Origin: Candidatus Nitrosotalea bavarica
GTDB lineage: Archaea > Thermoproteota > Nitrososphaeria > Nitrososphaerales > Nitrosopumilaceae
NCBI RefSeq assembly: GCF_900167955.1
Contig: NZ_FUYK01000010.1
Location: forward strand, 1-64,000
Direction: 5' to 3'
Length of the DNA: 64,000 nt
Shown: in pieces, positions 5,371-7,190 of the stretch
Position numbering within the stretch: the stretch's first letter is position 1
Layout of the letters: every line of letters starts with the position of its first letter
Notes under the pieces: generated by a model
Databases searched by the model: none
Told to the model about the DNA's origin: nothing
The model's input: only the letters and a program-made list of their open reading frames with translations
Made by a program: the position numbers and the translations under genes

Positions 5371-5628
5371 CTATAGAATCTTAGAAACAGTGTCCTTTAG
5401 ATCACTTGCTGCCTTTTTGCCTTTGGTGTTTGTATTTAGATTAACATGTTCTACAAGATCCTGAATTATTATTTCCATTGTACTATCAAGAGCTGCTCTA
5501 ACCGCAGTAATCTGCTGTACAATATCAGGATAGCCCTTTCCCTCATCAATCATCTTGCTAATGCCTTTGACATGCCCCTCGATTCTTGCCAGTCTTTTCT
5601 TTATCTCAGGCAGTTTATGATGAGTCAT
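5371..5628 (-). CDS. CsoR/RcnR-family metal-responsive repressor with altered ligand positions
   Basis: The protein has 85 residues and is a DUF156-type all-helical regulator (RLARIEGHVKGI, then VQQITAVRAALDSTM). Members form tetramers that bind G-tract operators and release on metal or sulfur signals. By ungapped hand alignment to CsoR and RcnR, the three usual ligand positions (Cys, His, Cys/His) are Tyr33, Leu58 and Val62. His3 and His4 at the N-terminus and His61 are present; RcnR is known to use an N-terminal His. It lies next to a metal-transporter gene whose upstream region holds a matching G-tract inverted repeat, so it probably controls that gene. The inducer is unknown. Confidence 0.88.
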   Translation of the reverse strand: MTHHKLPEIKKRLARIEGHVKGISKMIDEGKGYPDIVQQITAVRAALDSTMEIIIQDLVEHVNLNTNTKGKKAASDLKDTVSKIL

Positions 5629-5736
5629 GCGTTATTCTTCTTACAAGCTTGATATTTATCTAATCGGATGGTTTGTCCAACCTCCAAATAGATATATTTT
5701 ATCGAATCAAAATTGCAATGAACCATAAAATCATCT

Positions 5737-6384
5737 TCACCGTACAACAAGAACGTAGATTCCAATAGCCATAATCACAAATCCCACCATTGAATCATTA
5801 TATTTTTCTGGGATTTTTGCAAGTGTCTTTGCTAATCCTACAGTACCAAGCTGAACTAAAAGTAGAAGCGTAGTGATAGAAGCAACTGCAAAAACAACTG
5901 ACAACTCTAATGCAAAGTAAAATCCAGCTGATATTGCAGAAAGATAAATTGGAATAATGCTCGGGTCTGGAGAAAGTGCAGCCCCAAGAATTGCAAAATA
6001 TCCTACTTTCGAGGTAAGTTTGCCAAATTTCTTTTCTTCATTATGTTCGTGTTCATGATCATGATTATGAGGTGCACTCTTTCTTACTAGAGGCATGATT
6101 CCAACAACTAATCCTGCACCTACCATAACTAGTCCTATTCCAGTATCAAGATAGTATGAAATTAAATGAGAAAATACAAGTCCAATGACTACAACAATAA
6201 GTCCCAAAGCAACAGAAAGAGCTACATGACCGATAGCAGTCACAAATGATATTCCAAAGAGCTTTTTTGGGGCCCATTTTTTGTTTTTTGCAAGAACGCA
6301 TAGGGTAAGCCAATGATCAGGGGCAGACATGTGTAATATTCCTACTAGAGCAGCTCCAATTACATAAGCAAAGAGATTAGCCAT
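5737..6384 (-). CDS. Polytopic metal transporter, NicO/RcnA/UreH-like
   Basis: This 215-residue integral membrane protein has about six transmembrane segments. TM1 carries the motif HMSAPDHWLTL, resembling the His/Asp metal motif of Ni/Co transporters. A cytosol/periplasm loop at about 105-117 is His/acid-rich (HNHDHEHEH), typical of metal-binding loops. A second pair of helices contains ALSPDPSIIPIYLSA. The neighbouring CsoR/RcnR-like regulator and the G-tract operator 50 nt upstream point to metal-controlled efflux or uptake, with Ni, Co or Cu most likely. Ni supply for urease is one possibility, but the metal cannot be read from sequence. Confidence 0.75.
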   Translation of the reverse strand: MANLFAYVIGAALVGILHMSAPDHWLTLCVLAKNKKWAPKKLFGISFVTAIGHVALSVALGLIVVVIGLVFSHLISYYLDTGIGLVMVGAGLVVGIMPLVRKSAPHNHDHEHEHNEEKKFGKLTSKVGYFAILGAALSPDPSIIPIYLSAISAGFYFALELSVVFAVASITTLLLLVQLGTVGLAKTLAKIPEKYNDSMVGFVIMAIGIYVLVVR

Positions 6385-6433
6385 GCAATTACTCGTTCCC
6401 TATACTTGGATGAAAATTAGTTCCTAAAAAGCA

Positions 6434-6452
6434 TATCCTCCCCCCCAGGATA
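6434..6452 (-). promoter_or_regulatory. Candidate CsoR/RcnR-family operator (G-tract inverted repeat)
   Basis: On the minus strand this reads TATCCTGGGGGGGAGGATA: a perfect 6-bp inverted repeat around a run of seven G. Known RcnR sites have the form TACT-G6-N-AGTA, the same design of a G-tract between inverted half-sites. It lies 50-68 nt upstream of the transporter start at 6384, just before a T/A-rich TATA-like stretch (about 6420-6430). I did not see a second copy upstream of the regulator or the Cys-rich gene. Confidence 0.65.
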
Positions 6453-6548: not shown

Positions 6549-7190
6549 TTACTTCTTTGTTCTAGTCATTTTGTAGCTTTCAATTATAGTTACTACAAAA
6601 GCGGCTGCAAACAAACCTAATGGCATTGACAACCACATTGCCTGTCTAAAAAATGCAAGATTTACTGTTTCTGCTGTAAGTATACATGCACTTTCTGCAG
6701 TAACTAAAATGTAAAGACTGGTCTTGATGATGTATTTTAGATTCGGTAACTCGTACAGATGCGGAATCATTTTCATTCCAATCCAGCAATAGCTAAAAGT
6801 ATTCTTCAAATTTGAAACAAGGCTGATATTGCTTCCCTGCTCTATGGCAGAACAGCACGCACCCAATCCTTGTTTTGAACGGTATCTTCCCAAAATGGTA
6901 CAAAATGTAGTCAGACTTGCAAGACCATAACCTAGAGTATATGACATGATTATTCCAAATAGATCATGATAACCAAATAGTACAAACGATATGCCTTGTC
7001 CTACCTGAGATGATAAAATGCACAGAACTATTATACCAACAGCAGAAGGATATGATTTTTTGATTTGATTGAAGAATAATGTAGATTTTTTTATCTTTGG
7101 GACTGGAGCACAACAACATGTTCCTGTAGGACAAATCTCACACATGGAATCTTCTGTGCATTTACAGTCAGTACATGAACAGTTTAGCAA
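6549..7190 (-). CDS. Membrane protein with Cys-rich (metallothionein-like) N-terminal tail
   Basis: The protein has 213 residues. Residues 4-27 hold nine cysteines in CxC, CxxC and CCC arrangements (C4, C6, C9, C11, C17, C20, C25-C27). Four hydrophobic segments follow at about 50-70, 75-100, 155-175 and 180-203, with a further CC pair near 110. I recognise no family for the whole protein. The Cys-rich tail looks like a soft-metal binding module (Cu, Zn or similar), and the gene stands upstream of the metal transporter and CsoR-like regulator in the same orientation. It may be a metal chaperone/transporter component; the role is inferred. Confidence 0.7.
   Translation of the reverse strand: MLNCSCTDCKCTEDSMCEICPTGTCCCAPVPKIKKSTLFFNQIKKSYPSAVGIIVLCILSSQVGQGISFVLFGYHDLFGIIMSYTLGYGLASLTTFCTILGRYRSKQGLGACCSAIEQGSNISLVSNLKNTFSYCWIGMKMIPHLYELPNLKYIIKTSLYILVTAESACILTAETVNLAFFRQAMWLSMPLGLFAAAFVVTIIESYKMTRTKK

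Follow-up and report, generated by a model that had tools for sequence, protein, structure and literature searches.

The G-tract dyad TATCCT-G7-AGGATA, which we termed M1, is very probably the operator of an 85-aa PF02583 repressor, the gene of which lies just after the transporter gene preceded by M1. It was studied within the window, that is, the whole 64,000-nucleotide stretch of Candidatus Nitrosotalea bavarica DNA that was analysed. We consider the operator reading strongly supported because M1 is unique, is conserved at transporters, was not found where the regulator is missing, and is common to ATPase promoters and distant PF02583 genes. This analysis gives a predicted operator and target set for archaeal CsoR-family repressors, for which none were described in the papers that we found.

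Results

M1 in the transporter promoter

A pattern search of the window located TATCCTGGGGGGGAGGATA exactly at positions 6434-6452 (-), where it forms a perfect 6+6 dyad around G7. With up to three mismatches allowed, this was the single match in the window, compared with 0.03 expected in shuffles, and also the single match in the whole 1.55-Mb genome, in which the reversed pattern used as a control gave none. A spacing of 49 nt separates M1 from the downstream ATG of a gene for a 215-aa membrane protein (5737-6384 (-)), and the regulator gene (5371-5628 (-)), which a genome-wide search identified as the sole PF02583 gene of the genome, begins 108 nt past the stop of that gene. The original prediction had placed such a dyad upstream of a transporter gene, with a CsoR/RcnR-family gene just downstream of the latter, and this arrangement was confirmed.

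Directly downstream of M1 lies the TATA-like element TTTTTAGG (6423-6430 (-)), which presumably serves as the TATA box; its T-run is kept in orthologues, and the first two T columns reach 2.0 bits. The neighbouring gene at 6549-7190 (-) encodes a membrane protein of 213 aa that belongs to no Pfam family and is rich in cysteine at its N-terminus (CSCTDCKCTEDSMCEICPTGTCCC), and in several Nitrosotalea (L007, L194 and L207) it likewise adjoins the transporter-regulator pair.

Conservation of M1

We surveyed 250 genomes of the class, 28 of which contain the regulator and 27 the transporter, using the pattern TATCCTRGGGGGGAGGATA. Because a class-wide scan with three mismatches was noisy and its many matches in regulator-less genomes represent background, counts were restricted to sites with at most one mismatch. 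All 15 of these sites are located upstream of transporter orthologues, including one (L113, genome G156) at which the contig breaks off after 25 codons of the transporter and one (L117, genome G106) that precedes a broken transporter copy. This broken gene (L117:2230-2750) retains its M1 operator, and the regulator of G106 sits with a P-type ATPase instead.

Within the window's family, each of the 18 transporter promoters that we inspected carries M1 at a distance of 31-52 nt from the start, in part in degenerate form (at most four mismatches in 17 promoters and five in one); degraded copies include those of G064/L004 with five mismatches and G117 with four. Anchoring the 18 promoters on M1 gave a mean information per column of 1.68 bits inside the motif versus 0.33 bits for the 30 nt before it and 0.77 bits for the 30 nt after it; the conservation after the motif resides in the TATA-like T-run, a conserved TTTTTA-like element directly downstream of M1. 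Because of this phylogenetic footprint, a chance origin of M1 is excluded, and additional named Nitrosotalea loci agree. The gene upstream of M1 varies between loci, and M1 therefore travels with the transporter-regulator pair. Inspection of upstream stretches and the pattern scan did not find M1 at the transporter relatives of six genomes lacking PF02583 (G096, G168, G217, G221, G240 and G026). Conservation upstream of orthologous transporters, which had been put forward as a check of the original prediction, was thus seen in every promoter examined, and this check did not refute the prediction.

M1 as a member of an operator family

Type-1 operators of the PF02583 superfamily are defined as a single G tract with flanking inverted repeats (PMC12724321), and M1 agrees with this definition. 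The NreA operator TATCCTCTCGGGGGGGATA from Mesorhizobium, published in 2025 with the consensus TATCCYCtccrgGRGGATA, was proven in reporter assays, in which the TCC-N9-GGA ends were essential and mattered most (PMC12724321), and the operator of RcnR is TACT-G6-N-AGTA (PMC7055735). M1 ends in TATCC and GGATA and so has the NreA-like form TATCC-N9-GGATA and not the RcnR form. Counted by eye, the identity to the NreA operator is 15/19 for M1 of the window and 17/19 for an ATPase site in genome G225. Judged by sequence, the best experimental match of M1 is NreA's TATCC-N9-GGATA rather than RcnR's TACT-G6-N-AGTA. On the basis of its sequence, its conservation and the NreA parallel (PMC12724321), we predict that M1 is a type-1 CsoR-family operator and the repressor site of the transporter promoter. 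The CsoR/RcnR operator design originally proposed for this site therefore fits with regard to the G-tract, the flanking dyad, the position and the combination of exporter and small repressor, but the arms and the 19-bp length match NreA and not RcnR.

Sites of this type also occur at other target genes. In Nitrosotenuis, Nitrosocosmicus and some Nitrosotalea, the regulator gene follows a P-type ATPase gene (PF00122/PF00702), and at the promoters of these ATPases an M1-type dyad is located between a TATA-like element and the ATG, as exemplified by TATATCCTATCCTCCCCCAGGGGATATC-ATG in L114. Nitrosocosmicus additionally has an M1-type dyad between the regulator gene and a divergent EamA transporter gene. 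Because of the ATPase sites in relatives, such repressors would control different exporters, and because M1-type sites occur both upstream and downstream of the TATA element, we infer repression rather than activation.

The P-type ATPases adjoining the regulator (L114:3139-5028, L118:1044-3086, L123:3804-6002 and L199:1759-3798) lack the CPx motif of heavy-metal pumps, the place of which is taken by GACGLAVGTP in most of them and by SPAELGLATP in L114, and most begin with MSGACEY or MSGACEF. We also considered an assignment of these ATPases to the P1B-4 cobalt pumps and rejected it, as the SPC/HEGGT motif was sought in them and not found.

The dyad TATCC-N9-GGATA, with at most one mismatch and within 150 bp upstream, was found at 13 of 37 distant and mostly bacterial PF02583 genes, where control stretches taken from these loci predict 0.31; it was absent from some regulator loci, namely L248 and several of the Chloroflexota relatives. 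The operator code is that of the NreA-like branch and, being common to distant bacterial relatives, is probably ancestral.

The regulator lacks the canonical metal ligands

The 85-aa regulator scored 70.2 bits against the PF02583 profile (cut-off 22.8), and its AF2 model (pLDDT 88.9) has the three-helix fold of this family. Foldseek returned InrS, CsoR, CstR and FrmR as top matches of the model with a probability of 1.00 and E-values of only ~1e-3, with InrS as the closest solved structure (TM 0.74). The regulator missed the NCBIfam cut-offs of RcnR, RicR and FrmR by a wide margin (39.6 versus 138 bits for RcnR), and its best NCBIfam match was the copper-associated RicR, far under the cut-off. 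The protein had been assigned beforehand to the CsoR/RcnR family; its PF02583 membership holds, but it lies far below the curated RcnR, RicR and FrmR cut-offs, by which it is neither RcnR nor CsoR. As it lacks the canonical ligands, a metal response is not assured.

NreA and the regulator align without gaps. The DNA-contact residues tested in NreA (R17, R20 and Q44) correspond to R12, R15 and Q39 of the regulator, and the Ni ligands C38, H63 and C67, which NreA requires for its Ni response (PMC12724321), correspond to Y33, L58 and V62. The DNA code is thus kept and the sensor site changed. The regulator also does not display the PF02583 ligand fingerprint of a Cys at the start of alpha-2 with a His and a Cys/His in alpha-2. 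Across 25 archaeal sequences, Tyr33 and Leu58 are the same throughout; Val, Ile or Tyr occupies the third site, with Cys there only in the deepest archaeal lineages. An archaeal exception is L254, a record labelled Bathyarchaeota (MAG) with bacterial-like Cys and His, which may stem from transfer or from mis-binning of the contig; within this set, Cys is retained by the bacterial relatives and His by nearly all of them. In the archaeal set, conservation of Thr2-His3-His4 reaches at least 90% and Asp57 does not vary, with His3/His4 kept except in the deepest lineages.

The metal ligands of RcnR are the N-terminal amine, His3, Cys35, Glu63 and His64. With the offset worked out by hand, the regulator has Tyr at the Cys35 position, Val at the His64 position and His61 at the Glu63 position, and only an N-terminal His of this set is kept. 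Because the window protein contains no cysteine at all, it cannot use Cys-based sensing of Cu(I), persulfide or formaldehyde, and because Tyr-Leu replaces the Cys-His(-Cys) site, direct metal sensing, if any, needs other ligands. The N-terminal His3/His4, together with Asp57 and, where present, His61, are the best candidates, and Co/Ni sensing via the N-terminal His and carboxylates would be plausible.

The putative exporter

The 215-aa membrane protein belongs to no Pfam family: a Pfam search up to E 10 gave only a weak PF03596 match at 0.068, and the NicO profile gave no match up to E 10. NCBIfam yielded nothing usable and a PDB profile search nothing credible, a profile-profile comparison of its family with NiCoT produced no meaningful alignment, and the AF2 model (pLDDT 52.9) is too poor for classification. 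Close to its N-terminus the protein has an H-x4-DH motif (H18, D23 and H24), invariant in 21 of 21 transporter sequences, which we take to be a NiCoT-type signature, and further features are a His-rich loop and an invariant ALSPD motif. Based on H-x4-DH, the His-rich loop and the genomic context, we regard the protein as a putative Co/Ni exporter, with the direction of transport and the metal both presumed.

A second dyad in the regulator promoter

In Nitrosotalea, the regulator gene mostly has a promoter of its own, which contains the dyad TTGGAT-AAACC-ATCCRA ~35 nt before the start. In the window, this second dyad, M2 (TTGGACAAACCATCCGA, 5664-5680 (-)), ends 35 nt before the regulator ATG, and the TATA-like element TAGATAAATATC (5651-5662 (-)), conserved in the Nitrosotalea loci examined, is presumably the TATA box of the regulator promoter. 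M2 is lost or weakened at the regulator in three Nitrosotalea loci, and genome G079 has an additional, broken repressor gene (L199:1449-1724), found as two pieces, which is located after a P-type ATPase gene and has retained its M2 dyad. The forecast of a regulated promoter at 6434-6452 is supported by conservation of the predicted operator; M1 is not the sole regulated site, however, because the regulator has its own promoter with the different conserved dyad M2.

The next-best genomic copy of M2 is located between a NiCoT gene (NicO, PF03824) and a divergent HTH-DUF4443 gene (G000:C13 6585-6601). Across 81 family genomes, M2 sites with at most one mismatch mostly lie at cbtBA (PF09489/PF09490), NiCoT, DUF4443 or regulator genes, with one site at cbiX, and M2 within one mismatch was present upstream of DUF4443 in most of 30 loci tested. 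The DUF4443 gene stands beside NiCoT or cbtBA in Nitrosocosmicus, too. Because M2 occurs in G040 and G095, both of which lack a PF02583 gene, we disfavoured the idea that the PF02583 protein itself uses M2 as a further site. Judging from this distribution, the most likely binder of M2 is the HTH-DUF4443 protein, the gene of which adjoins Co/Ni uptake genes, and in the simplest reading the gene of the efflux repressor is a member of the HTH-DUF4443 Co/Ni regulon. The repressor gene thereby appears wired to cobalt-uptake control, with HTH-DUF4443 as a candidate for an undescribed cobalt regulator; the literature that we searched mentions neither DUF4443 nor an archaeal M2-like regulon. Predicted regulons of the cobalt transporter CbtAB and of NiCoT are already known (e.g. 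PMC2667541), and the M2 target genes belong to these known families.

Discussion

The closest parallel to the M1 locus is the nreAXY system of Mesorhizobium (PMC12724321), with which it has in common the 19-bp type-1 operator with TATCC...GGATA ends and a G-rich centre, a small PF02583-type repressor of metal exporters (here putative), a compact promoter and the three aligned DNA-contact residues. In contrast to NreA, which heads its own operon, the regulator gene here follows the transporter, has its own M2 promoter and belongs to a locus with an archaeal TATA-type promoter. The RcnR-rcnA system of E. coli (Ni/Co) resembles the locus in the G-tract with a flanking dyad, the repressor beside a membrane exporter (putative here) and the retained N-terminal His; it differs in the TACT/AGTA operator ends, in Cys35 and His64, which are not kept here, in the missed RcnR cut-off and in the transporter, which was not detected as RcnA/NicO. 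CsoR (Cu), InrS (Ni), FrmR and CstR have the PF02583 fold that is predicted here, but the present regulator has no Cys/His sensor site. The operator code thus seems to outlive the sensor chemistry, and the reading of DNA would be separable from the sensing of the effector in a family that is usually classed by its ligands.

We also weighed readings in which M1 has nothing to do with the adjacent PF02583 protein. M1 could act at the RNA level as the intrinsic terminator of the upstream 213-aa gene, since its palindrome (stem TATCCT/AGGATA) is followed by the T-run TGCTTTTT and this gene is co-directional in the window, but we give this almost no credence: folding was no better than in shuffles (z 0.96, -0.47, 0.51 and -0.20), M1 persists at loci with other upstream genes, some of which point in the opposite direction (L113 and L213), stem-breaking changes (TATCCA...AGGATA) are tolerated while the sequence is conserved, and the motif occurs without a T-run at ATPase promoters. 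Binding of M1 by an unrelated transcription factor is very unlikely, because M1 with at most one mismatch was found, save for one contig-end case, only in genomes with PF02583 genes, the motif accompanies the regulator at targets from three different gene families, M1 matches the experimentally proven operator of the PF02583 protein NreA, and the same dyad occurs upstream of distant PF02583 genes.

For M1 as the operator of the neighbouring repressor, we propose the following mechanism. At low metal, the repressor, presumably a tetramer, would occupy TATCC-N9-GGATA beside the TATA/BRE of the transporter promoter and block TBP/TFB, so that the exporter is off. An inducer, most likely Co(II) or Ni(II) in excess, would change the repressor, M1 would be released, and the exporter would be made. 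The M2 regulator would probably shut off uptake when metal is plentiful and also lower synthesis of the efflux repressor, by which export would be reinforced. M2 at both the regulator and the uptake genes suggests such a two-tier cobalt/nickel circuit. As a tentative generalisation to ammonia-oxidizing archaea, possible but short of probable, an HTH-DUF4443 metalloregulator would act on TTGGAT-N5-ATCCAA at cbtBA, NiCoT, cbiX and the gene of a Cys-less CsoR-type repressor, which in turn would act on the G-tract operators of exporters.

At its extreme, the two-tier circuit would turn the efflux repressor into a relay without a sensor, reached by the metal signal solely via its own transcription: under cobalt-replete conditions, HTH-DUF4443 would shut off the uptake and repressor genes, the repressor would be diluted, and the exporter would be switched on. 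The replacement of Cys/His ligands by Tyr/Leu in nearly all archaeal sequences and the fact that M2 precedes uptake genes as well as the majority of Nitrosotalea regulator genes are in line with this relay. We nevertheless hold it to be unlikely, if still worth considering, as His3/His4 are retained in all but the deepest lineages, M2 at the regulator is lost or weakened in three Nitrosotalea loci, and several Nitrosocosmicus paralogues with the same Tyr/Leu have an M1-type promoter instead of an M2 promoter, which points to an inducer of their own. Ammonia-oxidizing archaea need copper in quantity, and RicR is the best NCBIfam match of the regulator, though far under the cut-off. There is nonetheless only a very slim chance that the operon handles copper under a copper-responsive CsoR, given that Cu(I)-sensing CsoR requires Cys-His-Cys and the window protein has no cysteine, that CPx, the motif of copper pumps, is missing from the ATPases adjoining the regulator in relatives, and that M2 links the regulator gene to cobalt/nickel uptake genes.

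Ammonia-oxidizing archaea are regarded as important environmental producers of vitamin B12, and M2 names a candidate regulator (HTH-DUF4443) and a candidate regulon for their cobalt supply. The form TTGGAT-N5-ATCCAA was found at cbtBA, NiCoT and cbiX promoters beside HTH-DUF4443 in many of these organisms (loci include L134-L159 and L287-L301). In genome G087 (L193 and L194), M2 dyads additionally precede an Lrp-like HTH gene and an operon ending in a gene that, by eye, resembles B12-independent methionine synthase.
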